Positions 6,901-44,162 of a stretch of DNA of 47,226 bases are shown here, one piece after another (position 1 is the first letter of the stretch; every line of letters starts with the position of its first letter). The notes under the pieces were generated by a model. The model did no database searches, was not told where the DNA came from, and worked only from the letters and a program-made list of their open reading frames with translations. Both the position numbers and the translations under genes were made by a program. The DNA is from a bacterium D16-56 (GTDB lineage Bacteria > Bacillota > Clostridia > Lachnospirales > Lachnospiraceae). The DNA is taken from contig RAYY01000036.1 of assembly GCA_003611875.1 (NCBI GenBank), forward strand, positions 1 to 47,226. Reading direction: 5' to 3'.

Positions 6901-7588
6901 GAATCCGCAGGCGATGGAAATGATTACGGAGCTTGTGGCCAAGCTGCCGGAAATGGAGATAGACGGCAATATGAGTGAGGAAATGGAGGCAAAGGTGTGG
7001 GAGAAGCGTATGCCTGACCTGACGCCTGCAGAACAGCTTGCGGTGGAGATTGACCGTTTTATCTACGGTTATGACACAGCCCTTTACCGTGACAATAACC
7101 AGAGCATGACGGAGAACGTATCAGAGATTGCGGAAGCCTTGAAGCAGAGAGATACCCGTGACATGGCATTGTGGTTTGCCGACAAAGCTGCGGACGGAAC
7201 AGAGCCGGAGGAGCGAAAACGGGCTATGGAGTTTCTTGGAAAGCTGGCGGAGTACAAGCCCCTTGCCAAGATCGAGGAAATGGAAGAACAGAATTATTGC
7301 CTGAACCCTGATGAGGAAGATTATGACCCGTTTCTTGAGGGGGAAGAAGGCTTTTTCATGGAAGATTTGGAGGACAGACTGGAAATTCAGCCCCCAAAAG
7401 AGCCAGAGGGCAGTCCGTCATGGCGGGTGCAGGTGGAATACACGAATCATACAGAGCAGGATATGTTTAGTTATAATGATGACCTGTCAGACCGCCCGGA
7501 AGAATTGTATCTCTCACTGTTAGAATATTTTGAGCCAGAGGAGGAAGAATGGTTTGGAGTTTTGCGTGATAATATACAGAAAAATTGA
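3976..7588 (+). pseudogene. YodL-domain / nucleotidyltransferase polyprotein, 5' truncated and frameshifted
   Basis: Remnant of a large multidomain protein of Clostridial conjugative elements. The 5' part (from about 4030, ESIAYTVCQHFG) matches the tail of an ArdC-like antirestriction/peptidase module whose start is missing, lost at the junction with the recombinase trio. Then come coiled-coil and helical repeats and a YodL domain (IYQLKDIPEM near 5370 through KNSAHFVDSFGF near 5660). Next is an acidic linker, a pol-beta-type nucleotidyltransferase fold with GSRCRG, SDLD and VDINP (around 6380-6530), and an LPD-like domain near 6660-6960. Two lesions break it: a probable 1-base deletion near 5435 and an 8-base tandem duplication at 5614-5629. 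The stretch after 5630 remains open for 653 codons. Confidence 0.75.
5614..5629. repeat. 8-base tandem duplication that breaks the YodL frame
   Basis: TTGTAGTG occurs twice in direct succession. With one copy removed, the YodL sequence reads through as DIVVLHEDGKNS, the expected continuation, so the duplication is a recent slippage event that caused the frameshift. Confidence 0.8.
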
Positions 7589-7672
7589 AAAATATTTGCG
7601 GGAGGGCAAGGGCTGTTCAATGGCTCTTTTTTGCTTTCTGCCCCTGAAAAATAGTCGTTTCGTGCCATTGGG

Positions 7673-7701
7673 TGAAAAACAGAAAATTTTTATGGTATAA
7701 T
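7673..7701 (+). promoter_or_regulatory. promoter of the HxlR regulator gene
   Basis: A perfect TATAAT with an upstream TG-containing extension lies at 7696-7701, and a weak -35 (TGAAAA) lies 17 bases upstream. It sits about 75 bases before the HxlR start and follows the end of the decayed polyprotein. Confidence 0.5.
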
Positions 7702-7777
7702 TCAGTGGATGCTTTTACTTTAGCGAGAACGGCTTTTTGCTGAAGTAATAGGAAACAGCGGAAAGGGGCATCAGCTT

Positions 7778-8143
7778 ATGAAAATGAGAACGGAATACAC
7801 CTGCCCTTTGGAATTGGTGCATGACATGATCAAAGGGAAATGGAAACCGATCATCTTATGGCGGCTGCGTTTAGGGGCGACATCCCTGGCGAAGCTGGAA
7901 CGTGACATAGACGGCATAACACAAAAAATGTTGCTGGAGCAGTTAAAAGAACTGATGGATTACGGATTTGTGGAAAAGAAATCCTATGAGGGATACCCGC
8001 TCCGGGTGGAATATTCCTTGACGGATGATATGGGAATGAAAATACTGGAAGCATTGAGAATCATGCAGCATATCGGGATTGACTACCTGAAAGCAAACGG
8101 CATGGAACATATCTTGGAGGAAAAGGGAGTTATCCCGGATTAG
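7778..8143 (+). CDS. HxlR-family winged-helix regulator
   Basis: A 121-residue DNA-binding repressor or redox sensor of the HxlR/DUF24 family. The typical opening is seen: a Cys at residue 9 in TCPLELV followed by IKGKWKPIILW, then a recognition helix around GITQKMLLEQLKEL and the wing VEKKSYEGYPLRVEYSLTD. The N-terminal Cys is the residue that HypR/YodB-type members use to sense quinones or electrophiles; whether it does so here is inference. It starts at ATG 7778 after AAAGGGG. The inverted repeat between its stop and the next gene is a likely target, so it probably controls the PEBP-FUSC gene pair downstream. Confidence 0.88.
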   Translation: MKMRTEYTCPLELVHDMIKGKWKPIILWRLRLGATSLAKLERDIDGITQKMLLEQLKELMDYGFVEKKSYEGYPLRVEYSLTDDMGMKILEALRIMQHIGIDYLKANGMEHILEEKGVIPD

Positions 8144-8193
8144 TACCCACAAAAAAGTGGGTAATTTACTGTCTGGCAAACGCCGCTTATAAT
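8144..8193 (+). promoter_or_regulatory. HxlR operator and promoter of the PEBP-FUSC operon
   Basis: TACCCAC (8144-8150) and GTGGGTA (8157-8163) form a perfect 7-base inverted repeat with a 6-base A spacer. It lies directly upstream of a promoter with TTTACT (8165-8170), a 17-base spacer and TATAAT (8188-8193). Position and symmetry fit a dimeric HxlR-family operator. Confidence 0.65.
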
Positions 8194-8226
8194 ATCATCA
8201 TAAAATCGAAGTGGAGGATATCAAAG

Positions 8227-8730
8227 ATGAATGTTACAAGCAGCGGTATTATAAACGGCGTAATCCAGCCCCAATATGGCGGGCACGGGACGCAGTTCAA
8301 TGAAAACGGCATCCCTACTTATTCTTTATCCTTTAAGGTGGAAGATGCGCCGCAGGGAACGGTGTCGATTGCCATTGTTTTGGAGGATAAGGACGCATAC
8401 CCGGTGACCGGGGGATTCACATGGATACACTGGCTGGCAGCAAACATAACCCGTTTTGAGGTTAAGGAGAATGAGAGCCAGACGGCGGATGACTTTGTGC
8501 AGGGGAGGAATAGCTGGACGAGCATACAGGGTGGAGAGCAGTACACGGAGCTTTCCTGTTATTACGGTGGGATGACGCCGCCCGATAAGCCGCACATATA
8601 TGAACTTCATGTGTATGCTTTGGATAAAATGATGGACTTGGAGAAGGGCTTCCTGCTGAATGAGCTTTACCGTGAAATGGACGGGCATATCTTAGACCAG
8701 TTTACCCTGAAAGGGATATATGAAAATTAG
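8227..8730 (+). CDS. YbhB/YbcL-family PEBP protein
   Basis: A 167-residue phosphatidylethanolamine-binding-protein fold, annotated in bacteria as Raf kinase inhibitor-like. Family marks are the DAPQGTVSIAIVLED strand with the conserved Asp, the GGFTWIHWLAANI segment containing the ligand-site His, and the YYGGMTPPDKPHIYELHVYALD block. No signal peptide is visible, so it is probably cytoplasmic. GTGGAGGA precedes the ATG. The gene overlaps the next by 11 bases, so the two are probably co-expressed under the HxlR operator. The bacterial role of the family is poorly defined. Confidence 0.9.
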   Translation: MNVTSSGIINGVIQPQYGGHGTQFNENGIPTYSLSFKVEDAPQGTVSIAIVLEDKDAYPVTGGFTWIHWLAANITRFEVKENESQTADDFVQGRNSWTSIQGGEQYTELSCYYGGMTPPDKPHIYELHVYALDKMMDLEKGFLLNELYREMDGHILDQFTLKGIYEN

Positions 8731-9259
8731 CTGTCTGAAAGTCGGCGGGCGCACAATAAAAACAGTTGTGGCAGTATTCCTGTGCTTGATGACAGGCATA
8801 ATAAGGAAATCAGACACGGCATTCTATGCCGCCATTGCTGCTGTGCTGTGCGTCCAGCGTACCTCTAATGACAGTTTCCGTGAAGCATTCAACAGGGAGG
8901 CGGCTACAGTTATCGGCGGGATATGGGGTATGCTCGTCCTGCTGTTTGAGAGGAATGTCTGGTGTATCCCATATGAAGCAATACAATACCTGTTTTTATC
9001 AGTGCTTCTTATTCCAATCATCAATTTTTCTGTTTTGATAAAACGGGAAAAAGGGACGTTTCTCATGTGCGTTGTTTTTCTGTGCATTACTGTGACGCAT
9101 GGAAATGATGAAAGCCCTTTGTCTTTTGGCATTGCACGGATTTTGGATACTACGATTGGCATTGTGATTGCTTTGATAACAAACCAGTTTCCAATCCATC
9201 ATATATTGACTAAAGGAGAGCGGGTACTGCGCGGCTTTCGCCATAATGGAACATTTTGA
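8720..9259 (+). CDS. FUSC/aromatic acid exporter-like membrane protein
   Basis: A 179-residue membrane protein with about five hydrophobic segments. The segment TAFYAAIAAVLCVQ followed by FREAFNREAATVIGGIWGML matches the N-terminal membrane domain of FUSC/ArAE exporters (DUF939-like). The short length corresponds to the membrane half only. The C-terminal cytoplasmic domain seen in longer members is missing, so it is either a small member or a shortened gene. It starts at 8720 inside the end of the PEBP gene. A link to export of a toxic aromatic or quinone compound would fit the HxlR regulator, but that is inference. Confidence 0.65.
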   Translation: MKISCLKVGGRTIKTVVAVFLCLMTGIIRKSDTAFYAAIAAVLCVQRTSNDSFREAFNREAATVIGGIWGMLVLLFERNVWCIPYEAIQYLFLSVLLIPIINFSVLIKREKGTFLMCVVFLCITVTHGNDESPLSFGIARILDTTIGIVIALITNQFPIHHILTKGERVLRGFRHNGTF

Positions 9260-9377
9260 TAATCCGTCAATAGATTGTGTGGCTTATCGGCAAAGCACGG
9301 AAAATCTGAAATCCTATATGCAACGCCAATGGAGCCTTGTGGGTGGAATGGCTGGCACGTTTAGGGAGATGGCATGA
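9246..9377 (+). pseudogene. fragment of an unidentified conserved gene, copy 1
   Basis: A 43-codon remnant ending in YRQSTENLKSYMQRQWSLVG-GMAGT and a TGA stop. The segment 9289-9372 is about 90% identical (8 differences in 84) to 26266-26349, and many differences are at third codon positions, so both derive from a gene that was under protein-level selection. I do not recognise the parent family. Here it follows the FUSC gene and faces the MerR gene. Confidence 0.5.
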
Positions 9378-9425
9378 AGGGATAAAGCCAGAAAAGAACG
9401 GTTATCTTTTTCGGCAGTGTAATAC

Positions 9426-9806
9426 TCATGAAGGTACATTTTTTTGCACACGCTCTATTTCTTTCTTGTAAAATTCTATCTTCTCATCCAATTTAATCTT
9501 ATGCTCCTGTAACTGTGCAATCTGCTCATTAAGCGCCTGTTGGTGCTGCGCCAGCATTTCCATCCTTTCAGAAAGGGTGGGATTACCTGCTGCCCGGAGT
9601 TTGGCATAGTGCTTGATTTCCTTGATAGGCATCCCCGTGTCTTTCAGGCGTTTGATAAATTCAATCCATGTGAAGTCTTTATCAGAATAACAGCGGCGGT
9701 TGCTGGAATTGCGTTCCGGGGCAATCAGCCCTTCGTGTTCATAATAGCGCAGGGTATGGATGCCCAGCCCCGTCAGTTTTGAAAAATCTCCGATGGAGTA
9801 TTCCAT
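9426..9806 (-). CDS. MerR-family transcription regulator
   Basis: A 126-residue MerR regulator of the AdhR-like type. The N-terminal winged helix shows YSIGDFSKLTGLGIHTLRYY, EHEGLIAPERN and RRCYSDKDF. A long dimerisation coiled coil covers residues 75-120. No metal-binding Cys cluster is present at the C-terminus, which argues for a small-molecule or electrophile signal rather than a metal. GAGGTGA precedes the ATG at 9806. The gene is divergent from the SDR gene, and a classical 19-base-spacer promoter with a central palindrome lies between them, so it almost certainly controls that gene. Confidence 0.92.
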   Translation of the reverse strand: MEYSIGDFSKLTGLGIHTLRYYEHEGLIAPERNSSNRRCYSDKDFTWIEFIKRLKDTGMPIKEIKHYAKLRAAGNPTLSERMEMLAQHQQALNEQIAQLQEHKIKLDEKIEFYKKEIERVQKNVPS

Positions 9807-26941: not shown

Positions 26942-27335
26942 ATAAACACATCAGCGGGCATCACATTGAAGAACCCGGTGATGCCCGCGTCCGGGACATT
27001 CGGCTCCGGGCATGAGGATTGACGTGAAGAAAGGGGCGTTCTGCGTGGCAAATAAGACGGGCGGTCTGTCCGGGCCTGCCATAAAGCCGGTTGCGCTGCG
27101 GATGGTCTGGCAGGCCTGCCGGGCGGTAAGCATCCCGGTCATCGGGATGGGAGGAGTCCAGACGGCGGAGGATGCGCTGGAGTTCATCATGGCCGGTGCT
27201 GCCGCAGTGGCGGTGGGGACGGCGAATTTCAGGAACCCCTATGCCATGCCGGAGATCATCGGCGGGCTGAAAAAGTACATGGAGGAAAACGGTATCCGGG
27301 ATTTAAAGGAGATCAGGGATATCGTCAGTTGGATT
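26942..27335 (+). pseudogene. pyrD: dihydroorotate dehydrogenase (PyrD, class 1B), internally deleted
   Basis: The N-terminus reads [20 protein letters not shown] with AAAGGAGG 8 bases before an ATA where ATG is expected, so the start codon is probably mutated. At GGGCATGAGG (about 27007-27016) the sequence jumps, with a frame change, to the C-terminal part: [40 protein letters not shown] and the FMN phosphate-site AVAVGTANF. About 160 residues, including the catalytic loop, are missing. The frame then runs on without a stop into the radical SAM gene. Confidence 0.8.
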
Positions 27336-27362
27336 TTTGCAGACAGGAAGGAGAGATGTTTT

Positions 27363-28247
27363 ATGCATTACACGGGAACGATATGGAGGCCGCCCTATGA
27401 GGCCGGGAGCGCACTGGTACAGGTGACGGCGGGTTGTACCCACCACAAATGCAAGTTCTGTACGCTTTATGAAGACGTGCCGTTTAAGTTCCGTATGTCG
27501 CCTTTATCCGAGGTGGAGGCGGACTTGAAGGAGATCAGCCGTTACTACCGGAACGCAAAGAGGGTATTCTTCACCGGGGCGAACCCTTTTGTATTAAGTT
27601 TTGACAAGCTGAAAACGCTGGCGGAACTGGTACGGAAATATTATCCAAAAGTGCAGTCCATCGGCTGTTTCGCCCGCATCACGGACATCACGCCGAAGAC
27701 CACGGAGCAGTTGAGGGAGCTGCGCGGGCTTGGGTACAACAGCCTAACCATCGGCGTGGAGGCGGGTGACGAGGAATCCCTGTCCTTCATGCATAAAGGG
27801 TTCGGCACGAAGGAGATCATAGAAGAATGCAAAAGGCTGGATGAAGCAGGGATGGATTATAACTTCTTCTACCTTGCCGGGATATACGGTTCCGGGCATA
27901 TGGAGGAAGGGGTGAAGAACACGGCGGAGGTGTTCAACCAACTCCACCCGAAGGTCATTGTTTCCTCCATGCTGACGGTCTATCCGACCTCGGAGCTGTA
28001 CCAGGAAATCCAGGCTGGGAACTGGACGGAGGAAACGGAGACAGAAAAGCTGTATGAACTGAGGACGCTGGTCGGCAGCCTTGACATAGACACCTATTTT
28101 GCAACGATGGGGGCTTCGAACTGCATCAACGTGGAGGGGCATCTGCCGAAGGACAGGGAACGGATGGTAAAGTGGCTGGATGAGGTCATCGGCGCCGTGG
28201 ATGAAAAGGAGCTGCGCAGATACCGTGAGAACCTGCGGCATCTGTAA
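27363..28247 (+). CDS. radical SAM protein
   Basis: A 294-residue radical SAM enzyme. ATG 27363 follows AAGGAGAG; the frame is open further upstream only because it is fused to the pyrD remnant. The cluster-binding Cys lie in [15 protein letters not shown], a CX4CX2C spacing rather than the common CX3CX2C. The SAM-binding barrel follows with [20 protein letters not shown] and [12 protein letters not shown]. There is no SPASM domain. The substrate is unknown; similar proteins are widespread in Clostridia without an assigned role. It appears intact. Confidence 0.82.
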
Positions 28248-32432: not shown

Positions 32433-33409
32433 CGAGGGCACTGAAAAAGTCTGATTCTTTGAAAAAGAATTGGGCTTTTTTCTGTGTTGGCATTATAATA
32501 GAAGTATAGGGAAGGAGGACTCCGAAATGCTGAAAGATCATTCACAGTTGAAATTACCATTATCACCTTATCAGGGGATTTACAATGCGATCATTCCTGC
32601 AAATCATCTTTTGCGGAAGATAAAAGAGAACATCGATTTCAGTTTTGTTAATCCTATGCTGCGGAAACAGTATTGTGAAAATTTCGGACACCCGGCAAAA
32701 GAACCAGATATGATATTCAAGCTATTGTTCTTGAAAAAGCTCTGCGACCTGTCTGATGAAACGCTGATCAGCAGCGCCCGGACAGATATGGCGGCCAGGA
32801 GTTACCAGGCCTGATAGAAAAGGTGCAGGAAACAGGGATAGAGGTGACAGAAGTAATAGGGGATATGGCATATGGCTCAGCGATGATAATCCGGAAGCCT
32901 GTGGAGAAGGGATTACATTAATTGCACGGACAAATACGGCGGTGGCAGCGTCAGCAAACGGAAAACCGGAGGAAGGATTCTGTTACAATAAGGATGCCGG
33001 AATGCTGCAGTGTCCGGCCGGGAAATTGGCGATGCGGGTAGAGAAGCGGACAGCAAAGAACGGGAATACCTATTTAAGATATATATTCAGCAAAGTGAAA
33101 TGCAGGAAATGCCCGTTAAGAGAAAGCTGCCGTGTAGGGAGAGGGAAATCAAAGGAACGGAGTTACAGCATTACCCAGGCAAGCGAAAAGAACCTGGAAC
33201 GACTGAAATTTGAGTAGAGTGAATATTTCAGGGAACGGATGAAGATTCGGAATCGAATAGAAGAAAAGAATGGGGAAATAAAAGAAGCCCACGGATTACG
33301 CAGAGAGGATTCGAGAGGGCTGTTTGCCATGGAACTGCAAATGTATATCACAGCATTTGTGGCAAATGTCAAGAGAATCACGAGGCTGACGGAGCTGGTA
33401 ATGCAGTAA
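32433..33409 (+). mobile_element. IS1182-family insertion sequence, internally deleted
   Basis: The left end (GAGGGCACTGAAAAAGTC onward) recurs at the window's right edge. The transposase starts at ATG 32527 after GGAGGA. No matching inverted repeat was found on the right, so that end is truncated near the start of the kinase cassette. Confidence 0.8.
32527..33409 (+). pseudogene. IS1182-family transposase remnant
   Basis: The N-terminus (HSQLKLPLSPYQGIYNAIIP, NPMLRKQYCENFGHPAKEPD) stays in frame for 96 codons to TGA at 32812. Several hundred bases coding for the DDE core are missing. After that the middle (EKVQETGIEVTEVIGDMAYG) and, in another frame, the zinc-binding C-terminal part (GMLQCPAGKL, KVKCRKCPLRESCRVGRGKS) follow, with TAG at 33215 and a final stop at 33407. 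It cannot encode a transposase. Confidence 0.8.
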
Positions 33410-33475
33410 GGTAACGCTTTTCCTTGCATGCTTTGGAGCAAATTTGTAACACAGATGCTGTTTATAGTGTCAACT

Positions 33476-33491
33476 CTCAAGTAAACTTGAG
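33476..33491. promoter_or_regulatory. palindromic operator candidate before the kinase cassette
   Basis: CTCAAGT-AA-ACTTGAG is a perfect 7-base inverted repeat with a 2-base centre. A TATAGT hexamer (33463-33468) lies just upstream. It is the only clear regulatory-looking site before the first gene of the cassette. Confidence 0.5.
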
Positions 33492-33519
33492 AAAATTCAA
33501 AAAGGTGATAAAATTAAAA

Positions 33520-33630
33520 ATGAAAAAGGTAGGCGAAAATTTTGATTCAGGAGTAAGGGAAGATGATATGAAGCAAACTTTCAAGTTTATCCTGAATAGC
33601 AATACGATCGATTGCAGGGAGGACGAATGA
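33520..33630 (+). CDS. 36-residue small ORF coupled to the kinase cassette
   Basis: ATG 33520 follows AAGGTGA by about 11 bases. The peptide starts MKKVGENFDSGVREDDMKQT and ends NSNTIDCREDE with one Cys. Its TGA overlaps the next ATG (ATGA), so translation is coupled. It could be a leader, a substrate peptide for the downstream radical SAM enzyme, or a small partner protein. No family is recognised. Confidence 0.45.
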   Translation: MKKVGENFDSGVREDDMKQTFKFILNSNTIDCREDE

Positions 33631-35324
33631 AAGAGCTTGATTATACCATTTCTGCGAAAAAGAGCATAGAAAAATATGAAGCAGCCACTTACGGCAGTCA
33701 GGATTTTGATGTATATGACCTGATAAAATGCGGACAGCTTACAGTTGAGGATGTTCTATGGTATCATGCTTTTAGCGGCTATACGTATCTGTGCAGTATG
33801 CCCTTAAAAAACGAGCAGATCGCAGCGGAAATACGCAGGTATCTTTTTCGGGAAAAAATTGGGGGAAAGGAAAAAACCGTACAGAGTATCGAACTAGATT
33901 CGGAGATTGAAAAAGAGCAGACCCTGTACTGTCTTCCGGACGGTTCCTGTTATGACAGGCTGACGGCGCCGGAGATTTTAAGCAAGATGATAAAGGTTCT
34001 GCAGGAAAGCTATATGGAATGCCATTTGACGAGTGATGAAGGCATTGCGTATAAGATTCCCTTGACCCCTGCCGCGTTTCGAAAATTCCTGCTTCAAGAG
34101 GTAACGAACCGGGATAATCTGATACGTATGGCTTTTGCCCTGCGCCTGAAAAGAGAGGAGTTTAATCGTTTTTTAACTTCTGGATCGTATCTTAGGGAAT
34201 TAAGCGCGGCTGTTCCTCGGGAGATGATTCTGTTGTATTGTATTGAAAATGGGAGATTTGAGTGGGAGTTTGTCAATAAGCTCCAGAGGAAAGCCGAGAA
34301 GTATAAAAAGGAAGCTTACAATGAAAATCATAGCGAAAATATTGATACAGACAGCAGATTTATATATACACAGAATGCGAAGACAGAGTGGGCAGAAGCT
34401 CTGCAGGGCATGGATGCAAAAAGGTTTCAGGAGGAGATTTTAAAGCCCTGCTGCCGTATGGCTGTGCGAAAAAGCCTGTCGGACAAACAGTATAGTATGA
34501 GTTCTTTTGAAAAAATGTATCAGTATTCGATTCTGAAAGATTTAGCGGCAGAAATGGGGAACTGTAAAGTATACGAAGACTATGATACTGTGTTTGTTAC
34601 GGAAACTGTCAGGCGTTATTGGGAACATCTGAATCTGCCGGAGGATTACTGGCTGTTTAAAAGTGAAAATGATGATAAAGTAATGTCAGCAGATTCTTAC
34701 TGTAGATTTTTGGCGTATCGTATGATGATGCCCAATACCGAGGGCAGGCATAATGTCAAATTTTATCGTTCCAGATATGGACTGCTTCCAAATGAAATCC
34801 GTAGCCATGTGATGAAAGTGAGCGATATTGACAAGCTTCGCAGCCTGGACTGCGAGAAATCAAAAGTACATAGCATCAATCGGTATGATATTATGGTCGT
34901 GAAATTTTATTATTTTTTAATGAAGAGCTGGAAAGAGGGCGGGCCGTTTCTGGCGGAAAATAGGGAGTCTGCGGATAAGCAGTGGAGGAAGTTTTTTGCC
35001 GGAATGAATGCGGATCTGCAGGATACAGGCTATCCGAAGATGACAAATAAAAATCCGATGGATGCCATGCTGCGGATTTGTTTCCATTCGATCTGTCCGC
35101 TGGAATGTTATAACAGGATTTATGAGCTGGATATTTTGCATAGCATCATCGAAGACCCTGACGGGTACAGCACAGCATATTATCCAAAGCCGGAGAGGAT
35201 ACGAGCTGTTTTAGACGGGCTGGAAAGAAGCTATCAAAAAATCTGTAAGATAGATCCGGTAAAAGAAGGCGAATGGAGGCTTGTTGAAGATTTTAAGAAG
35301 AGAATTCAACAAAAGGACATCTAA
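33627..35324 (+). CDS. uncharacterised 565-residue protein of the kinase cassette
   Basis: ATG 33627 is chosen since GGGAGGACGA lies directly upstream. I do not recognise the protein. It is soluble and mostly helical, without signal peptide or membrane span. The segment at about residues 165-215 (NLIRMAFALRLKREEFNRFL, then LREMI-like LLYCIENG) resembles a compact helical XRE-like unit seen in some Clostridial regulators with protein kinases; this is a weak comparison. Cys are scattered without a metal motif. It lies 33 bases before the kinase gene, so it may be the kinase substrate, a regulator or an effector. The frame is fully intact. Confidence 0.75.
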   Translation: MKELDYTISAKKSIEKYEAATYGSQDFDVYDLIKCGQLTVEDVLWYHAFSGYTYLCSMPLKNEQIAAEIRRYLFREKIGGKEKTVQSIELDSEIEKEQTLYCLPDGSCYDRLTAPEILSKMIKVLQESYMECHLTSDEGIAYKIPLTPAAFRKFLLQEVTNRDNLIRMAFALRLKREEFNRFLTSGSYLRELSAAVPREMILLYCIENGRFEWEFVNKLQRKAEKYKKEAYNENHSENIDTDSRFIYTQNAKTEWAEALQGMDAKRFQEEILKPCCRMAVRKSLSDKQYSMSSFEKMYQYSILKDLAAEMGNCKVYEDYDTVFVTETVRRYWEHLNLPEDYWLFKSENDDKVMSADSYCRFLAYRMMMPNTEGRHNVKFYRSRYGLLPNEIRSHVMKVSDIDKLRSLDCEKSKVHSINRYDIMVVKFYYFLMKSWKEGGPFLAENRESADKQWRKFFAGMNADLQDTGYPKMTNKNPMDAMLRICFHSICPLECYNRIYELDILHSIIEDPDGYSTAYYPKPERIRAVLDGLERSYQKICKIDPVKEGEWRLVEDFKKRIQQKDI

Positions 35325-35357
35325 GAGGACGCCTGAGTTGATTGAAAGGACGATTTT

Positions 35358-38300
35358 ATGCAGGACAACAGAAGATCTTTAGCCGGGGAAGAAGAAATCT
35401 ATATAAATCTGCGCGATGTTAAGACGCATCTGCCGGCACAGTTTCTTATTAGAGGTGAACAGGGGAGAGGGAGCAGTTGCATAGTCTATCAGGCTTTTTT
35501 ATGTGCCGGTCACAAGCCGGAGCGTCCAGTTCTGCTCAAAGAATTTTATCCATTGGAATGCAGTGATCTGCTGCTGCGGAGCGACGGCGATCATGCGTTA
35601 AGGTATGCGCAGGAGTATCCTCCGCTGACCCAGGCCGATGAATATGTCAGGAAAAAAACGCTTTTTTGCCAGATCTGTGAGAATCAGAAGGTTTTTTATC
35701 TGATAAATGCTGCTGTAAGTGCCGATGAACTGGTAGAAATACAAGGCATGTATGTCCTTGGAGAGAGCTGTTATGCTGTGATGCCGATTGGCGGCGGCTG
35801 TAGCTGGGATCAGATCGACAGGGAAGGGGAAAGCCTGCATGAAGTGCTTGAAACGATTTATTCTGTTTTGAGCGAGCTTGAGCTTTATCACAGCAATGAA
35901 CTTTTGCATGGCGATATCAAACCAGCGAACATATATATTTTTCGAAAGACCCGCCAGCATGTGCGGCTTTTAGATTTTGGAAGTACGCAGAAGCTGCAGG
36001 GAGGGCGCCTTACCGGAGATGAGGCATTATCTTACAGCATGTGCTATGCGGCGCCGGAGTTGTTGGAAGCTGAAGGCGTCTGTGATCTGGACAGGGAAGA
36101 TTATTTTTCCTGCATCACCCCGAAGGCTGATTTATATTCGGCTGCGGCTGTATTGTATGAGAGGCTTACCGGGCAGTGGAGAGATTATCGCATGCCGGAC
36201 GGCCAGTTTTTCAGTCTTATGGAAGAAAATCTGGAATCACTCTGGGAAAGAGAAAAAAACGGTTGGTTTCAAAATATCCGCCGCATGATTGTGACAGAGC
36301 TAAAAGTTTTTTTAAGACGCACACTGGAAAGGAATCCAGAGGATAGGTACAGCCTTTTGGAAATGAAGAAAGAAATTGAAAGAATGCTCAAATTAGCGGA
36401 GCCGCCGAGATTTGAATTGGCGCCGGAATTCAGGGCTTATGATGCGTGTGCGGATTTTATCGGGCGTAAAAGCGAGCTGGAGCAGCTTAAAAATATGCTG
36501 GGCCGGAATCAACATGCAGTTTTCATTTATGGGGAAGGCGGACTGGGAAAGAGTGAGCTTGCCATGAAGCTGGCGCAGGAGCTAAAGAGCGACTTTGACT
36601 TTTACAGGCTTACCTTTTCTGAAGACCTGAAGCAGACAATTCTTGGGATTAGGACGAAGCCGGAGCCTGTATTTGATCATTTTGGTGCATCCGGGGAAAA
36701 CAGAACAGAAGAACTGTATGAGTGGAATCTCCAGTGCCTGAGAGGCTGCAGCCCGGCTAGTGTCCTGATTATTGATAATTTCGACATTCCTCCAGAAAAG
36801 GAAAATGAAATCTTTCACAGCAGGGCTTATGCGGATTTGATGAGCATTGATATGAAGATTTTGTTTACATCCAGACAGCGGCCGATGCCTGGCGCCGCCG
36901 GACTGGAATTGAAGGAATTACCGGAGTCTGAGCTTTTAAAGATCATCCAGGCTTATTACAAGGGAAAGATTGACGAGGATGTTTTCTGCGAACTGATACG
37001 GAAAGCGCAGTCTAATACGCTGGTTGTAGAGCTGATTGCAAAATCATTGGAGCAGAGTTGGGGGCAGCTTTCCCCGAAGGAGCTTCTGCGTCTGTTTTCT
37101 TTATCTGGAGAAAGCGGGGATGGTCGAAAGCCAGAGCTGATTTATGGTTGTATTCATCATCTGTTTCAGGTCACGCTGTTGAGTGATGCGGCGAAAGAGC
37201 TGATGGCGCAGACAATCCTGTTTCCGGCAGGAGGGATTACGGCGGAAATCTGCCTGCGATGTCATTCGCAGACGGAGCAGGATAAGCTGCGGCTGCTGGA
37301 GCTGAATGGATGGATTCATAAGACGCCGGACAATCTTCTTACCGTACATCCGTTGGTTCAGGAAGTCTGCCGAAGGGATTTAAAGGAACAGGAGGAGGCA
37401 TGCGGCAGGTTTTTAAGAAACTATGAGCTGCTTTCGCTTACGCTTGCCAATGAAGCTCGTCTGAAAAATCAATATCAATTTGCGGATATTTTTTCTAATG
37501 CGTCGGATTATTTAAGTGATCCGGAAGGAGACTATGCTGCAAAGGCGGGCGGATTGAATTATCAGACAGGACGTTATCGGCAGGCCTTGAAATATCATCA
37601 GAGACATTGGGAAAGGTATGCGGCCGGAAAGGATATAGACTCTTTAAAGGCGATCGGCATACTGGACTGTATTGCGTCCTGTTATTTGGGACTTGGACAA
37701 TATAGAGAGGCTGTCTATTATGAACAGCAGGGGATTCATACGTTTGAAGAACTCGAAGGACGGGACGCAGCCTTGCTTGCGGATTATTATAATAATCTGG
37801 GGACCATCTATAAAGAGTATGGCAGGTTCGAGGAGGCGCTTGCAAATTATCAGCGGACGCAGCAGTTTTATGAAGCGCGGGAGGAAGGGCTTACGATGCA
37901 GAGGGCTGGTTTATATTTAAATCTGTGTAAGCTGTATGAAAAGCTGGGGAGGTTTGCATTATCGAAAGAATACGGATTAAAGGCGCTGGCATATTACGAG
38001 CAGTATCCTGAGAAATATATACCGATAGCAGTGCTTCGGGCTTCTGTATACACTACGCTGGGCATATTGGAGGAGCATGGTAATGATTATCAGCAGGCAG
38101 CTTTTTATTATGAGCGTGCAGCCGGTATTTATGAAGCCGCCTATGGGAGGGAGAACCCGTGGACTGCGGGCAGCTATAATGACAAGGGAATTGCCTTGAC
38201 ATATCTGGGAGAATATGATGAGGCTTTTAAAGAGCTGACAAAGGCGAAGAAAATAAAAGAAGCTGTTTACGGCAGTTTTCATACATCGACAGCGAATACA

Positions 38301-38681
38301 TACCACAGCCTGTCTGATTTTTACCGCCAGAAAAAAGATTACAAAAATGCGCTGAAATGGTGTGTGAAGGCGGAAAAAATTCGGAAAGCTTCCTATGGGC
38401 CAAGGAATCTTAGGACAGTGAGAAGCTATGAGCTTCACGCAGCCGTACTGTATGAATGGGGGATTGATTTGAAGAAAGCGCTGGCTTATATCAGCTTTGC
38501 TTTTTTGATTTACTTTGATGCGGTTCAAAAGAAACTTTGTGCGGAGTCGCAGATTAGGTTTGTGCAGTACAATTTGTATCAGATTTATCTGGCAGTGGGA
38601 AATCCTCCGGAGATGTTTGCGGAATGGGTGGTTGGGGAAAGGGCTAAGTTGATGGATGGGTGGTTCGAGAGGAATCTTTGA
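35358..38681 (+). CDS. protein kinase-STAND NTPase-TPR fusion protein
   Basis: A 1107-residue signalling protein. Residues ~30-345 form a Ser/Thr kinase domain: Gly-rich loop RGEQGRGSSCIVYQ, Lys61 in LLKEFYP, catalytic loop HGDIKPANI (184-192, HGD in place of HRD), DFG at 206-208 and APE at 232-234. A STAND/NB-ARC-like NTPase follows: DFIGRKSELEQL, Walker A GEGGLGKSE (392-400) and Walker B VLIIDNFD (469-476). From ~730 to 1060 lie TPR units such as DYYNNLGTIYKEYGRFEEAL. STAND proteins oligomerise when the repeat domain binds a trigger; here the output would be phosphorylation. AAAGGA precedes ATG 35358. Intact. Confidence 0.9.
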   Translation: MQDNRRSLAGEEEIYINLRDVKTHLPAQFLIRGEQGRGSSCIVYQAFLCAGHKPERPVLLKEFYPLECSDLLLRSDGDHALRYAQEYPPLTQADEYVRKKTLFCQICENQKVFYLINAAVSADELVEIQGMYVLGESCYAVMPIGGGCSWDQIDREGESLHEVLETIYSVLSELELYHSNELLHGDIKPANIYIFRKTRQHVRLLDFGSTQKLQGGRLTGDEALSYSMCYAAPELLEAEGVCDLDREDYFSCITPKADLYSAAAVLYERLTGQWRDYRMPDGQFFSLMEENLESLWEREKNGWFQNIRRMIVTELKVFLRRTLERNPEDRYSLLEMKKEIERMLKLAEPPRFELAPEFRAYDACADFIGRKSELEQLKNMLGRNQHAVFIYGEGGLGKSELAMKLAQELKSDFDFYRLTFSEDLKQTILGIRTKPEPVFDHFGASGENRTEELYEWNLQCLRGCSPASVLIIDNFDIPPEKENEIFHSRAYADLMSIDMKILFTSRQRPMPGAAGLELKELPESELLKIIQAYYKGKIDEDVFCELIRKAQSNTLVVELIAKSLEQSWGQLSPKELLRLFSLSGESGDGRKPELIYGCIHHLFQVTLLSDAAKELMAQTILFPAGGITAEICLRCHSQTEQDKLRLLELNGWIHKTPDNLLTVHPLVQEVCRRDLKEQEEACGRFLRNYELLSLTLANEARLKNQYQFADIFSNASDYLSDPEGDYAAKAGGLNYQTGRYRQALKYHQRHWERYAAGKDIDSLKAIGILDCIASCYLGLGQYREAVYYEQQGIHTFEELEGRDAALLADYYNNLGTIYKEYGRFEEALANYQRTQQFYEAREEGLTMQRAGLYLNLCKLYEKLGRFALSKEYGLKALAYYEQYPEKYIPIAVLRASVYTTLGILEEHGNDYQQAAFYYERAAGIYEAAYGRENPWTAGSYNDKGIALTYLGEYDEAFKELTKAKKIKEAVYGSFHTSTANTYHSLSDFYRQKKDYKNALKWCVKAEKIRKASYGPRNLRTVRSYELHAAVLYEWGIDLKKALAYISFAFLIYFDAVQKKLCAESQIRFVQYNLYQIYLAVGNPPEMFAEWVVGERAKLMDGWFERNL

Positions 38682-39067
38682 TAGACGGGAGTAACAGTCC
38701 AGATGGGGTGTTACAAAGAGTGACATTGTAATGCTGCGTAAAAGAATAAGGTTGTTGCATGAGGTTCCTGTGTATACAAAATTTTGTGTGCGCAGAAATT
38801 TTGTGTAACAGCCTTTTTGCGTTTTTACGGTTGACATCAGACGACAGGCATTCATTTCCATGATATATTTTCGCTATACACATAAGCGATATAATTTGTA
38901 GTTTAAGGCTTGAACGTCCGTGAACCAGCATACTGGTAAATTTTACCGCCTGCCAGTATAGCGGCTTGATCATTTATGGTTACAGCTCAGAATCCGACTT
39001 TACTGTAACGGAATCCGGCAGGTTCATTGGAAATCGTATTATATTGCTTTGGAGAAAGGAGAAATCT
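38682..39067 (+). promoter_or_regulatory. 386-base regulatory gap before the radical SAM gene
   Basis: The largest gap in the cassette. It contains AAATTTTGTGT twice (about 38777 and 38795), a TATAAT at 38890-38895, the palindrome GGTAAA-T-TTTACC (38935-38947) and the inverted repeat ATACTGG/CCAGTAT (38930-38936, 38953-38959). Two short frames occur: 25 codons at 38731 and 34 codons at 38759-38863 (MRFLCIQNFVCAEILC and on), the latter with three Cys and a weak AAGG site. A separate promoter and possibly a small peptide gene are suggested. Confidence 0.45.
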
Positions 39068-41119
39068 ATGAAAAAAACTACATTGATTGGTAAAGTGGAA
39101 AATAATGAAATGCTGCTGCCGCTGCTAGCGGAAAAGAATTTATTGAGAGATCAGATGCTTTACCAAGTGACAGAAGTAAAGCGGGGAGGAATCTGTGCCA
39201 GAAACATGGATGCGAAGCTAAAGGATGCAGACCCAGGCCAGGCAGTGGGATGTGCAGAGGTCCTTTTGACGGCGGGTCCTCTGAATGATCGGATAAAGAC
39301 GCTGATAGGAGACCGTGAAGCTGTTTCCTTTGAAGCATACGCAAAATGTCACAGCGTTTCTACGGACTGTCCGGCTATCGAGATTGCCGTTTCACGAGAA
39401 TGGTTTTCGGATGTATTAGGCGTGATGCGCAGACTGGCGGAAACTGGTTATAAGATTTATCTGGAAGGAAAGCAGCCGCAGCTCGATCAGATTTTATCCT
39501 TAACAAAGCTTCGGGGTGCAGATGCGGAGGCTAAAATAATTCTTAGTATTCAGGATGATTCAGATTTTACGTCCGTACAGCTTTTGGAGAAAGAAATTTT
39601 AGATTTTTTACGTAAAACAGTACCAATGCAGGCTTATTTTAACCAGTTTACGAAAAACTATATAAATAGATGGAAATATAACCTGCATGTTTTGAGCGAT
39701 GGGAGTGTATTTCTTTCCTGCTCGAGAACTGTTCGACCGCTTACGAAGACGCAGTGTCAACTGTTAGAAATGTCAGATTTGAATCAGGCAGTGATGCCGG
39801 AGGATTTGACAAGGGAGGAGCTAGAGACTTTAACGGCTCTGTGCATGCAGGAAGAAAACAAATCCGAGTATTTTAAAGCTATCATCAGCACAGGACTGGC
39901 CCGGATTGAGAATTACGATGATATGATTGTTTCGTTTGTCGGCAGCCACCGCTGTAATATGAAATGCAAATACTGCTTTTCAGACCATACGCATGAGGCG
40001 CTTTCAGCAATGAATGAAGATGACATGCTTGAAATTACAGATCTGCTGACAAGCGGCAGGCCGAATTTAAATCTCCATGTGGACAATAATCTTGCCGGTG
40101 AGCCGCTGGAAGACGAAAAAGCGGTAAAGAAACGGCATAATGCGTTGATTGCTTATCATAAAATACGCGGAATCGTGGCTTCCTTCGGATTGCTGACAAA
40201 TGGAACGCTGCTAAAGCCGGAGCATCTTAGCTGGCTTCGCTACCATATGCCATATCTGGGGTTCAGCCTGGATGGCGACAGGAAAACTCATGACAGAATC
40301 CGTCAGGATGCTGGCGGGAATCCCACTTATGACAGGGCAGTCAGAGGAATCAAAATGGTGCAGGAAGCTGATTGGCCGGTGGAGACAGGAGTTTCTACAG
40401 TAATCAGCAGATATAATCTGGACATATCGTCGCTGCAGGCTCATATCCGGGAAGATCTTTTGGTTCCGAATATCGTAATGAAGCCGGTGAGGGCTTCCGC
40501 TGATTCTGATTTTGCCCTGAACTATGGGGATTTAGAACAGTTGCAGGCAGGCTATAGGGATTTCTTTTCTTTTTTGTTAAATCAGGGCAGACAGGGGGAT
40601 CTGAAGCCGTTGTTTACGATGCTTCAGCCGCTTGATTATGCAGGACGCTTTTTGCTGCGGGTATTTATGGCTGACAGGGTGATTGTAAAGCGGTGCGGGA
40701 GCGGAGAGCATATATTTAGTGTTGCTGATAATGGAAAAATATATCCTTGCGATTCTTTTAATGGAATTGAGGGTATGGAAATAGCCAGTCTGGAGGAGGG
40801 GATGCATAATCGTCCGGGCTACCGGGTTCCTTTTGTGACGGATGAACAGGATAAATTTGGATGTGGGAGCTGCTGGGCGCGTTATCTATGCGGAGGAATC
40901 TGTCAGTATGTGCAGTATTTGAATCATTACGAATATAACGATGTACTGAAATTCGAATGCGGGCTCAGCCGCTTCTTGATTGAATTATCGATACTTTTCT
41001 GGGAGGAGGCACACAGGACATGGGATAAGGGGCTGCTTGTTTCGGTGGAACAGAGGATGCATTCGATAGGCTTTCGTCCGATGCGGGATAAGGATGCGTT
41101 TGTCTATGCTCCGTGTTGA
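39068..41119 (+). CDS. radical SAM/SPASM maturase
   Basis: A 683-residue enzyme. ATG 39068 follows AAAGGAG; an in-frame extension upstream lacks a ribosome site. The first ~280 residues are an unassigned domain that may bind the substrate. The radical SAM barrel has the CX3CX2C motif GSHRCNMKCKYC (Cys296, 300, 303), then LLTNGTLL and GFSLDGDRKTHDR. A SPASM region carries further cluster Cys at 543, 561, 599, 602, 608, 612 and 631 (GCGSCWARYLCGGICQY). The layout matches peptide and protein maturases such as sactipeptide/ranthipeptide enzymes and anSMEs. The substrate is probably encoded nearby. Intact. Confidence 0.9.
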   Translation: MKKTTLIGKVENNEMLLPLLAEKNLLRDQMLYQVTEVKRGGICARNMDAKLKDADPGQAVGCAEVLLTAGPLNDRIKTLIGDREAVSFEAYAKCHSVSTDCPAIEIAVSREWFSDVLGVMRRLAETGYKIYLEGKQPQLDQILSLTKLRGADAEAKIILSIQDDSDFTSVQLLEKEILDFLRKTVPMQAYFNQFTKNYINRWKYNLHVLSDGSVFLSCSRTVRPLTKTQCQLLEMSDLNQAVMPEDLTREELETLTALCMQEENKSEYFKAIISTGLARIENYDDMIVSFVGSHRCNMKCKYCFSDHTHEALSAMNEDDMLEITDLLTSGRPNLNLHVDNNLAGEPLEDEKAVKKRHNALIAYHKIRGIVASFGLLTNGTLLKPEHLSWLRYHMPYLGFSLDGDRKTHDRIRQDAGGNPTYDRAVRGIKMVQEADWPVETGVSTVISRYNLDISSLQAHIREDLLVPNIVMKPVRASADSDFALNYGDLEQLQAGYRDFFSFLLNQGRQGDLKPLFTMLQPLDYAGRFLLRVFMADRVIVKRCGSGEHIFSVADNGKIYPCDSFNGIEGMEIASLEEGMHNRPGYRVPFVTDEQDKFGCGSCWARYLCGGICQYVQYLNHYEYNDVLKFECGLSRFLIELSILFWEEAHRTWDKGLLVSVEQRMHSIGFRPMRDKDAFVYAPC

Positions 41120-41193
41120 TGCCGCTGATCTTTTTATCTATGCGGAAGGTTTTTGGGGATTGTGGGAACAGCATATTGTGAGAGGAGAAGAAG

Positions 41194-42017
41194 ATGAGGG
41201 CAATACAATGTTACAGCAGCAGGCCGATGACTGAAGGCCGTGGGGCGTTGGGATTGTTTGGAGATTCAGGAGAAATTTTTTTGGATGAACATGTACGTTT
41301 GTGCATGGTTCTCTCAGCGCTTCAGTGGAGGCGGCTCAACGGCCCGATTACGTTATATACTGATACGCCGATGAAGCGGTATTTAGAAAAACATAAATTA
41401 CTCAGCTATTGGGATGATGTGGATACAGAGGTACTAGATCGTTTTTATGAAGAATGCGGTGTTATTAATTTCAGCGTGTTCTGGTCTGCCGGAAAGTTTG
41501 CCTGTTATCTTCATGAGGAGGCTCCGTTTGTCTGCATTGATACGGATCTCATCGTATGGGATACTCTGGAGTTTGATGAGGGACTGGATTTTGCGTTTGC
41601 GCACTGGGAACAGATCGAGGCAGGGGATGAGAGCTATCCTGATGTAAGCAGAATCCATAAGCCTGACGGATATAAAGACGGTTATCAGAAAGGGAGAAGA
41701 AATATGCGCTGCCGGAGGTCTTATATATGGAGCAGAGGCTTCCGCTAATGATTGCTTGTAGAAATGAACTGAATTTTGCTCCGGTACTGCCTTGTACATG
41801 GAATCCTAAGAGATTTTGTATTATGAATCCGGGTGATGATTTGAAGCACTGGTTTTTCTCTGACATTGATCCGTCGAAGCCTTTTACGCACCTGTGGTTT
41901 CATAAAAAGTATCTGGCACAAAACAAAGAGGCGTGCAAGGAATATTGTGAGAGGCTGCGTCAACTGTGTGCTGCGGCAAAGCAGGGGAAGGAAAAAGTGA
42001 AAAGGCACTGCAGATAG
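41194..42017 (+). pseudogene. DUF6734-like putative glycosyltransferase, one frameshift
   Basis: A ~275-residue protein in two frames. AGAGGAG precedes ATG 41194. The first frame has MRAIQCYSSRPMTEGRG, a region with PITLYTDTPMKRYLE, and the DxD-like VCIDTDLIVWD (Asp116, Asp118), as in DUF6734 and GT-A-type glycosyltransferases. Near 41690 (CAGAAAGGGAGAAG) a probable one-base deletion shifts the frame. The second part, YALPEVLYMEQRLPLMIACR and FTHLWFHKKYLAQNK, runs to 42017. It may glycosylate a product of the cassette. A sequencing error would make the gene intact. Confidence 0.65.
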
Positions 42018-42035
42018 GCAGTGGTGGAGGAAAAG

Positions 42036-42050
42036 ATGCCAGCAACATTA
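42036..42050 (+). pseudogene. first codons of a further cassette gene
   Basis: GGAGG (42026-42030) and ATG 42036 open MPAT, after which the sequence becomes group II intron debris. The cassette operon therefore once continued and is truncated on the right. Confidence 0.4.
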
Positions 42051-42420
42051 AACGGTTTTGTATCTGGCGCAGGGCAGTATGGCAGATTCTGCCGGGGCGG
42101 AATCCGTGGGAAGTGTCCTCAAAGCTATCGTCATAGATTGCTTCCAGTATCATTCTTGCGGCTTCCAGTACCAGCTTTTCGTCGATTGACGGGACTCCGA
42201 GCGGACGGAGCTTTCCGTTTTTCTTGGGTATATAGGTTCTCCTTGCTGGATAGGGGTGGTATTGCTCCCCCTTTAGCTGTTCTATGAGCCGGGCGATTCG
42301 TTCCTGGCTCATGGCGTCAATGGTTTGTCCATCAACGCCTGCTGTCATTGCTTTTATGTCCGTGTGGTCTACTTGGATAATGTACCCGTCAATGGCAATC
42401 TTGCGCAGATACGCCGCCAT
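42051..42420 (-). pseudogene. MobC stub fused to group II intron reverse transcriptase fragment
   Basis: The minus strand first reads a MobC piece (AAYLRKIAIDGYIIQVDHTD, IKAMTA) and then, in the same frame from about 42333, a reverse-transcriptase piece: GVDGQTIDAMSQERI, RRTYIPKKNGKLRPLGVPS and SHGFRPGR. It ends at about 42051 where cassette DNA starts. The catalytic YADD part is missing. The join suggests a deletion between two mobile elements. Confidence 0.75.
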
Positions 42421-43928
42421 GTTTCTTCTGGAACCCCTGTCCCAGAACCCATGGCTTTTTCTATCGCTTTACGCTTTGCCTCCGTGTCGGCATGGGCATA
42501 GACCAGAGTGGTCTCAAGGCTGGCATGCCCAAGCCATTGGGAGATCAGTGTCAGGTCCATCCCGTGCTGGTACAGGTGCATGGCACGGGTATGCCGCCAG
42601 AGATGGGGGTATACTGTTTCTGGCACATCCCCGCATTTCTCCCTTGCCGCATCCGCATATTTCTGGATGCGGATCCTCACCGTGTCATCGCATATGGGCT
42701 GTAGCTGTCCTTTCCGTTCTACATAAAACAGCGGTTTCTCTGAAAGCATGGATTCCCTTTTGTGAAAGACGCTGATATAATTCTTCAGCTTCCCTACTGT
42801 ATTTGCCATCAAGGGGACTGTCCTGATCTTCCGGCCTTTTCCAAACAGCTGTGCTGTCGGCGTCCTGTCAAGCCGCAGGCCGCAGAGCCTGATGCCGAGG
42901 GCCTCCTGTATCCTGGCTCCTGTATCATACAGCATGACCATGATCATCTGGTCGCGCAGCCCTATGGCTGTGCGGGTATCCGGTTCTTTCAGGAGCGCCT
43001 CCACTGCCTTTTCTGTCATGTAGTCCACTTTGGCAAAGCGGTCGCTCTTGCGGACCTTGATGGCAGAGAGCTCACCTGACAGGCTGATATATTCCGGCCT
43101 GCAGGCTGCCGTATAGCTGACGAACGTCCTCAATACCGCGAGCCGGTTGTTCCTGGTCGAAGACGACAGGCCCCTGTCCCCTGTGAGCGAGTCCAGGCAG
43201 GCATTGACGGAACCCGCGTTCACCATATCGAAAGTGACGGCCATGACCGGTATGCCTTTGGCCCCCGCCACATGGGCCAGGAACTGGTTCAGCACAGTGC
43301 GGTAAGTGGTCACTGTGTTCCCGCTCAGCTTCCGATGCACCGGCAGATATACAAGGAAGATATGGAAATGCTTCAGGTAGAGCAGGACATTGTGCAGGCC
43401 TGATGTCTTTATGCTGGCTGCGGTCTTTAAGATGAATTCCCGGACTTCATCATGTGTCACATCTGAAAGCGAGGCATGGCCGCGTTTCTCCATGTACTGG
43501 AGATATTTCCGCACGGTCCATCCGGCATCATATCTCGATTTGTCCCCGCATGACCTCGAACAGAGGAACTGGTCAACGATCCGCTCATTCCCCTCCGACA
43601 GTATAAAAGAAGTCCCCCTTTTTTGCGATGTGTACCGGAATTGTCCACTCAGGAAGAATTCATTCATCCTGCGGCCGACATACCGTGCTTTCTTGAAGGA
43701 CTGGTAGGTGACCTTTCCGCGCTCATATCTTTCCTTGTTCAGGCTGATATACTCATCTGTGATCTCTGGGCTGTATACTGCCTGTCCGGTCTGCCCATAG
43801 TATTTCCGGAACTGCCCCATGGCAGGCTGATAATACCTCCAGACCGTAGTCTCACTGTAACCGATTCGCCTCATCTCATCCAATATCTGCGCGGTCAGCT
43901 GGTTGATGGTTACTGTGTTTTGTTCCAT
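42369..43928 (-). CDS. chimeric tyrosine recombinase with doubled N-terminal domain
   Basis: A 519-residue protein from ATG 43928 (AAAGGAGG 8 bases upstream). Residues 1-~200 (QLTAQILDEMRRIGYSETTV to VLLYLKHFHIFL) are the N-terminal domain of one recombinase and stop where its catalytic domain should begin. At VYLPVHRKLSGNTVTTYRT a nearly complete second recombinase starts, with Arg in DTGARIQEAL, Lys in GKGRKIR, HLWRHTR and GHASLETTLVYAH. An in-frame deletion inside a recombinase trio, from the middle of the first to the start of the third gene, explains this. The last ~20 residues run out of frame through MobC debris. All catalytic residues are present. Confidence 0.78.
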   Translation of the reverse strand: MEQNTVTINQLTAQILDEMRRIGYSETTVWRYYQPAMGQFRKYYGQTGQAVYSPEITDEYISLNKERYERGKVTYQSFKKARYVGRRMNEFFLSGQFRYTSQKRGTSFILSEGNERIVDQFLCSRSCGDKSRYDAGWTVRKYLQYMEKRGHASLSDVTHDEVREFILKTAASIKTSGLHNVLLYLKHFHIFLVYLPVHRKLSGNTVTTYRTVLNQFLAHVAGAKGIPVMAVTFDMVNAGSVNACLDSLTGDRGLSSSTRNNRLAVLRTFVSYTAACRPEYISLSGELSAIKVRKSDRFAKVDYMTEKAVEALLKEPDTRTAIGLRDQMIMVMLYDTGARIQEALGIRLCGLRLDRTPTAQLFGKGRKIRTVPLMANTVGKLKNYISVFHKRESMLSEKPLFYVERKGQLQPICDDTVRIRIQKYADAAREKCGDVPETVYPHLWRHTRAMHLYQHGMDLTLISQWLGHASLETTLVYAHADTEAKRKAIEKAMGSGTGVPEETWRRICARLPLTGTLSK

Positions 43929-44017
43929 GGCAAAACGCCTCCTTTGATAATAGTCAGACATTATCCTGTCTGCTTTGTCTATTATCATGGATACGTTGTT
44001 TTTTGTGCGAGAAGTAT

Positions 44018-44162
44018 TATACCGAATTTGAGCATCTGTCCGATGAGGCGCCAGCAAGATCGCCAGATCTTGGAGAAAATGTTATACCGAATTATTTTAA
44101 AAAATCGTAGAAATACCGAGGCTGCTCCGTAAGCCTCGGTATAATAGAAGTTTCGGTATAAC
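44018..44162. repeat. cluster of TATACCGAA sites upstream of the chimeric recombinase
   Basis: ATTATACCGAA at 44017-44027 and GTTATACCGAA at 44081-44091 lie in one orientation; TTCGGTATAAC at 44152-44162 is the exact inverse of the second. A hairpin ATACCGAGGC/GCCTCGGTAT (44113-44140) carries two more variants. The arrangement fits recombinase core sites, an element end, or a regulator array. Confidence 0.6.

Follow-up and report, generated by a model that had tools for sequence, protein, structure and literature searches.

The DNA analysed here (the window) is the 47,226-nt contig RAYY01000036.1 (assembly GCA_003611875.1) of the Lachnospiraceae bacterium D16-56, in which an apparently acquired stretch (33466–42071) carries a kinase gene and its companion followed by genes for a radical SAM/SPASM enzyme and a broken glycosyltransferase-type protein. 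Three long uninterrupted open reading frames (ORFs), all on the + strand, occupy positions 33627–41119; these are U565 (33627–35324), encoding a divergent kinase-partner family member of 565 residues, KIN (35358–38681), encoding a Ser/Thr protein kinase–STAND NTPase–TPR protein of 1107 residues, and the radical SAM/SPASM gene (39068–41119), encoding 683 residues from its ATG. A preliminary description had suggested that these large, intact, co-directional genes reflect recent arrival or selection and could form, with a putative DxD glycosyltransferase, a four-gene system. The three genes were confirmed at these positions, and it is rather probable that U565 and KIN together constitute a single signalling switch encoded by two genes, from a family not yet described, with KIN as an NLR-like protein and U565 as its dedicated companion.

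KIN was assigned from Pfam matches, motifs, and a KIN-family hidden Markov model (HMM) that has KIN itself in its seed. The kinase domain spans residues 118–338 (Pkinase, E = 2.9e-18), a P-loop/STAND-like region lies at about 365–480 (AAA_16, 2.6e-6; NB-ARC, 0.004; both under the Pfam gathering scores), and tetratricopeptide repeats (TPRs) occupy about 760–1060 (TPR_12, 1.4e-32), so that an effector, a STAND NTPase, and a C-terminal repeat sensor are all present, as had been proposed. Kinase motifs comprise a glycine loop from residue 33, the Lys in VLLKEF from residue 58, HGDIKPAN at 184, and LLDFG at 204; switch motifs comprise a Walker A motif (GEGGLGKS, 392), a Walker B-like motif (SVLIIDNFD, 468), and VHPLVQEV (663). 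Judged by these residues, KIN has intact motifs both for a STAND switch and for kinase activity. Among PADLOC kinase families, KIN matched PD-T4-6 (5e-21), with the best model covering only residues 118–347 of 1107 rather than the whole protein; the FxSxx-COOH TPR model NF040586 gave 95.7 bits, where >300 is required. Relatives of KIN at E ≤ 1e-25 were found in 7 of 298 other genomes of the family; viral contigs contained no close relatives. The match covers both the kinase and the STAND part in four of these seven genomes, in all of which (4/4) a gene encoding 413–469 residues adjoins the kinase; the remaining matches are confined to the STAND part.

U565 had been described as a protein of unknown kind, and it showed no significant Pfam match (best E = 0.15) and none in NCBIfam or PADLOC. 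Used as a single-sequence query, it also had no close relatives in viral contigs or 84,980 species genomes, nor in plasmids or phages. An alignment of the four genes adjoining KIN relatives, used as the query, identified 18 loci in the 84,980 species genomes (four being the seeds themselves), all 18 with a gene matching a STAND-kinase profile within 5 kb (divergent in 16; split over two frames in locus L072); this set is partly selected, the seed having been drawn from genes next to kinases. A second profile, which combined these 18 partners with U565 and the partner of locus L050, identified partner members in 40 of 397 family genomes; one weak match among 47 places (E = 2e-6) was left out, and four repeats (L046–L049, of L061, L077, L074, and L063) were excluded from locus counts. 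An HMM of 18 other partners from the wider family, with U565 excluded, matched residues 123–505 of the 570-codon U565 ORF with E = 6.8e-18 (100,000 sequences); these 18 seeds had themselves been detected with the 20-row profile, in which U565 made up one row. The profile of the 18 STAND-clade partners plus L050 matched U565 at 1.2e-9, and N- and C-terminal motifs are common to U565 and the partner family. By profile and motif, we classify U565 as a divergent member of an unnamed kinase-partner family. Members are mostly 370–530 residues long, and none of those scanned has a significant Pfam family; a helix-turn-helix identity for the N-terminal domain, considered because of a resemblance, was dropped (Pfam HTH_3, 0.17 in 1/19; HTH_NDX, 0.15 in 2/19). 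Another protein (L052:6821–7825), whose N-terminal half resembles a macro domain, ends in a piece of the partners' N-terminal domain. Among the papers listed in literature searches, no title or opening of an abstract describes the partner–kinase pair.

The co-occurrence of partner and kinase is far above chance. U565 lies 33 bp ahead of KIN on the same strand, which is the commonest order and orientation (24 of 53 pairs, window included). Among 59 partner loci other than the window, 52 have a protein kinase gene within 5 kb and 43 have one within 500 bp; for the 41 partners found by the partner profile outside both the window and the 18-locus set, the counts are 34 and 29, respectively, compared to a chance expectation of about 3% (94 Pfam kinase matches in 12 genomes, about 46 Mb). 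Partner and kinase also co-vary: their pairwise distances were correlated with r = 0.907 (39 of 53 pairs, 14 being left out because a motif was absent; largest of 2000 permutations, 0.211) and, after removal of the STAND clade, with r = 0.785 (24 pairs; 0/2000 permutations as high). The recurrent co-occurrence suggested as a check in the preliminary description was thus found for the U565-type partner and the kinase, but not for this SPASM enzyme: no protein in the 59 loci matched its N-terminal part, and none matched any DUF6734 query; three matched its radical SAM domain weakly. At L130 (1322–10018), a partner gene that lacks a kinase directly follows four genes that resemble JetABCD (Wadjet).

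A further pair was identified on plasmid pCY186 of Butyrivibrio proteoclasticus, where a 1106-residue kinase is the sole plasmid match to KIN at E 1e-15 (query residues 1–731). A gene encoding 431 residues, 14 bp upstream of this kinase, matched the wider partner profile (8.2e-24) and, in a direct comparison, U565 itself (8.6e-4); because the pCY186 pair is absent from all profiles, this test is independent of seed circularity. No radical SAM or glycosyltransferase gene was present among the 20 features listed near the pair (the gene table is incomplete), and, as read from these genes, pCY186 carries the pair known from the window but lacks the SPASM and glycosyltransferase-type genes that follow it there. 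A gene annotated as encoding a caspase family protein (L173:16751–18244) lies about 3.4 kb past the partner-linked kinase of this plasmid.

The third intact gene encodes an enzyme whose radical SAM (Radical_SAM, 2.9e-12) and SPASM (TIGR04085, 2.2e-10; 40.8 bits, cut-off 27) domains agree with the earlier assignment, with CNMKCKYC at residue 296 and SPASM-type cysteines at 543–631. Its best models are the SCIFF maturase TIGR03974 (135 bits, >425 required) and the PapB ranthipeptide maturase NF047865 (115.3 bits, >340 required), and it reached 43.8 bits with viperin (NF038283, >180 required). At E 0.001, none of 298 other genomes of the family contained a match to the N-terminal 280 residues, nor did plasmids, where the matches listed for the enzyme cover the radical SAM part only; no close relatives were found in viral contigs. 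Radical SAM/SPASM matches occurred in 200 of the 298 genomes, and their spread, together with the NCBIfam result for the window's enzyme, suggests that most are SCIFF maturases, uninformative on the cassette; the clusters around the best two, L044 and L045, contain no KIN match. A small-ORF search gave no convincing precursor peptide beside the gene; 25- and 34-codon frames were rejected, as they overlap the terminator described below.

The fourth gene showed similarity to DUF6734 (PF20508), and it is frameshifted and broken because relatives match its two parts in different frames. The first half (41194–41748, + strand), which carries a DTD motif, scored 26.8 bits against a cut-off of 27 (4.4e-6), and seven DUF6734 relatives are 25–39% identical to it. 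The rest (approximately 41715–42017, + strand), assigned from the same relatives, lies in another frame; the relatives match 41188–41673 in one frame and 41715–41954 in frame 3, where the top two E values are 6.5e-17 and 3e-7 and the remaining matches are weak, and thus align over both. The gene of the putative DxD glycosyltransferase is therefore not intact. DUF6734 genes were found in 7 of 249 other family genomes, none of these loci with a KIN or partner match; three of the seven include a gene with the cysteine motif of radical SAM enzymes, which is no more than two genes away in L158, where Pfam confirms the assignment, and in L164. In L164 (4788–11144), the DUF6734 gene is clustered with two such cysteine-motif genes and a further gene that is presumably Hsp70-like.

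An intrinsic terminator (38750–38813, + strand) starts about 70 bp past KIN and consists of a 29-pair stem (−38.4 kcal/mol; z = −8.2; 0/200 shuffles equally stable) followed by a T-rich tail, TTTTTGCGTTTTT. The U565–KIN transcript very likely ends here, and the genes therefore do not look like one transcription unit; the SPASM and DUF6734-like genes probably belong to a separate one. Promoter-like sites were identified upstream of U565 (TTGAGA-16-TAAAAT with TG ahead, 33487–33514, + strand), by consensus match alone, and upstream of the SPASM gene (38841–38869, + strand; 9/12 consensus match, with TG); such sites are not above chance in the region (15 vs 15.3 expected from shuffles).

Broken ORFs that look like transposase remnants (32470–33466, + strand) form the left border of this stretch; two parts of this border (32638–32833 and 33176–33466) match another contig of the same genome with 98–99% identity. 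On the right are a group II intron reverse transcriptase fragment (41884–42420, − strand; TIGR04416, 8.9e-31, 107 bits vs a cut-off of 300) and a tyrosine recombinase gene (42369–44057, − strand; Phage_integrase, 3.9e-26). In a DNA search of 24 genomes of the genus, including the window's own and scoring up to 12 candidate places per genome, the DNA between 33466 and 42071 had no listed match in the 23 other genomes, and the DNA flanking it on the left and right matched several of them. The stretch looks acquired because its flanks match other genomes of the genus and it does not itself, which fits the recent arrival that the preliminary description had named as one of two options. Two other genes of the window were recorded: an ORF (27012–28247) fusing the C-terminal part of dihydroorotate dehydrogenase, its N-terminal part being absent, to a radical SAM domain, and a gene (5627–7588) for a protein with the large polyvalent protein domain LPD16. 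Such domains are typical of mobile elements.

The 18 related STAND-kinase loci are enriched for radical SAM genes. Among 101 of their neighbour proteins, Radical_SAM was the top Pfam family, seen in 11; Fer4_12 occurred in 5, some of them among these 11, and NRDD in 3; among 133 neighbours of the other loci, Radical_SAM was not one of the 25 Pfam families listed (2 of 103 and 15 of 148 proteins, the 15 mostly long, were omitted from the two scans). By cysteine motif, a radical SAM gene lies no more than three genes away in 8 of 18 STAND-kinase loci, compared to 2 of 41 others (Fisher, 0.0006), on a genome background of about 7.2 per Mb (223 in 8 genomes); three CxxxCxxC matches were excluded by eye as not radical SAM, a decayed viperin in L071 was not counted, and L109, which has a STAND-type partner but no kinase, was placed among the 41. 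In L072 (Selenomonadales), a viperin gene (250 bits, NCBIfam cut-off 180), another gene of the radical SAM type, and two GTPase genes lie between the partner and the STAND kinase (8722–9546 and 6024–8709); the GTPase scanned matched MMR_HSR1, with IIGP just below its cut-off. The viperin remnant of L071 (9229–9533) lies beside GTPase genes 82–89% identical to those of L072. NrdG-like activase and NrdD-like enzyme genes occur between partner and kinase in L062 (7633–10018) and L069 (7482–9640), and a NrdD/NrdG-like pair lies beyond the kinase in L070 (2211–4360). The two NrdD-like proteins scanned (559 and 550 residues) score above the NCBIfam NrdD cut-off, and their length and match range suggest that they have no ATP cone. 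From these gene contents, the cargo of STAND-kinase loci varies while the switch stays. For 16 of the 18 loci (L072, split over two frames, and L074, cut by a contig end, were left out), identities were 23–28% in the C-terminal arm, 48% in the kinase and STAND parts, and 42% in the partner; such a divergent arm would suit either a sensor that is under diversifying pressure or one that is weakly constrained.

We read KIN as a sensor that would switch its own kinase, and U565 as an adaptor or substrate, because of the NLR-like layout of KIN and the divergent C-terminal arm of its relatives. In the proposed sequence, the TPR arm of KIN would bind a trigger, the STAND NTPase would then exchange nucleotide and assemble, the N-terminal kinase would become active after this assembly, and U565, most likely as substrate or adaptor, would relay the signal. 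Exchangeable radical enzymes (viperin, NrdD/NrdG-like pairs, and SPASM enzymes) are encoded beside related switches and would be their likely outputs, most plausibly in defence; the SPASM gene and broken glycosyltransferase gene of the window could be such an output or unrelated cargo. Several observations weigh against parts of this interpretation. For seven of the 59 partners, the HMM detects no kinase in the surrounding 5 kb (two of these have one by motif, and another member of the seven, L050, lies at a contig end), and host kinship inflates the correlation of partner and kinase distances. U565 matched the profile of the 18 STAND-clade partners alone weakly (7.7e-5), and in the kinase tree KIN has a long branch of uncertain position, outside the radical-SAM-linked STAND clade. 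Among the PADLOC matches listed, the similarity of KIN is limited to its kinase domain. The radical SAM enrichment test is post hoc, the idea having arisen from the same loci, and the neighbours of the wider family point to ordinary phospho-signalling (FHA, 7; Pkinase, 6; PP2C_2, 6; among the 133 proteins scanned).

The four-gene system of the preliminary description is unsupported because the N-terminal part of the SPASM enzyme is unmatched, a terminator follows KIN, KIN lies outside the clade linked to radical SAM genes, and DUF6734 loci lack KIN and partner matches; the pair also occurs without the other two genes (59 loci and pCY186), one of which is broken. Whether the SPASM and glycosyltransferase genes were left over from another mobile element, as cargo that came to stand beside U565–KIN by chance, is evenly poised in our judgement: the terminator ahead of the SPASM gene, the broken last gene, the mobile DNA on both sides, the position of KIN in the tree, and the pCY186 pair all speak for it, but the SPASM gene is intact amid decaying DNA and a linkage with radical SAM genes is seen for related STAND-kinase loci. 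The proximity of KIN and the SPASM enzyme may well be accidental, an outcome that the preliminary description had itself considered incompatible with a system; a linkage between them is possible.

The switch proposed for U565 and KIN could also serve housekeeping-type phospho-signalling, as a kinase and adaptor acting with PP2C and FHA proteins, with the STAND and TPR parts sensing a cell-internal cue and no role in defence. We regard this as a real, if less favoured, possibility. The neighbours of the wider family agree with it, as does the finding that only 27 of 53 partner-linked kinases reach into the STAND part by HMM (three more have a P-loop motif); the STAND–TPR layout of KIN, its setting in a mobile-element island, the occurrence of the family on a plasmid, and the STAND-clade neighbours, which are unlike the FHA/PP2C pattern, argue against it. 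The conflict or defence role raised in the preliminary description has indirect backing in the NLR-like layout, the fast-diverging arm of the related clade, and the viperin gene of L072; the viperin locus and the mobile setting favour defence as the output, whereas the FHA and PP2C neighbours of the wider family favour signalling.

A more specific joint proposal is a kinase-NLR immune module of Lachnospiraceae and relatives, in which a STAND–TPR sensor kinase and its dedicated, hitherto unrecognised partner would gate interchangeable radical effectors, so that infection leads to radical-made or depleted nucleotides, with the SPASM enzyme as the effector of the window; we consider this unlikely as a whole. 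In such a module, related loci would use as effectors either viperin or short NrdD-like enzymes together with their NrdG-like activases, a part of the proposal that we likewise consider doubtful; nucleoside triphosphates are the substrates of both families. More improbable still is a single kinase-controlled modified-peptide pathway, which the preliminary description had also offered and in which the SPASM enzyme would modify a peptide, the DUF6734-like protein would glycosylate it, and KIN and U565 would regulate, as in FxSxx systems: the nearness of the enzyme to SCIFF and PapB maturases, the FxSxx TPR match of KIN, the radical SAM-type genes of L158 and L164, and the coupling described for FxSxx systems (PMC7159879) fit it, but there is no convincing precursor peptide, the glycosyltransferase is broken, a strong terminator follows KIN, model scores are far under their cut-offs, and DUF6734 genes occur in 0/59 partner loci.

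Because partners adjoin kinases in most loci and those scanned have no significant Pfam family, a kinase signalling layer in gut Clostridia seems to be absent from annotation. Should the STAND-kinase branch prove to be immune, bacteria would have an NLR with a kinase output and swappable radical-enzyme effectors, including viperin; the pCY186 pair and the loci in named genomes make the partner–kinase switch testable.

Among known systems, the PADLOC families PD-T4-6, mad6, and C3a189 resemble KIN in the kinase domain, but their matches are listed without STAND, TPR, or a partner. The SCIFF and PapB ranthipeptide maturases share the radical SAM and SPASM domains with the window enzyme, which differs in its long additional N-terminal part and in that no precursor was found. 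Prokaryotic viperins (pVips) are represented in the related locus L072, and the SPASM enzyme of the window is not a viperin. In FxSxx peptide-processing systems, according to Kaur et al. 2020 (PMC7159879), an AP-ATPase–TPR protein accompanies a radical SAM/SPASM enzyme, so that a STAND–TPR protein and such an enzyme occur together as in the window; in the window, however, no FxSxx peptide was found, KIN adds a kinase domain, and the model score is far under the cut-off. The closest resemblance in layout is to antiviral STAND proteins (Avs and bacterial NACHT proteins) and NLRs, for which an effector, a STAND NTPase, and a C-terminal repeat sensor have been described (PMC10907252). KIN differs from these in having a protein kinase as its putative effector and the gene of a dedicated partner alongside, and it has the same order of N-terminal effector, central STAND NTPase, and C-terminal repeat sensor; the fast-diverging C-terminal arm of these proteins likewise recurs in the clade related to KIN.

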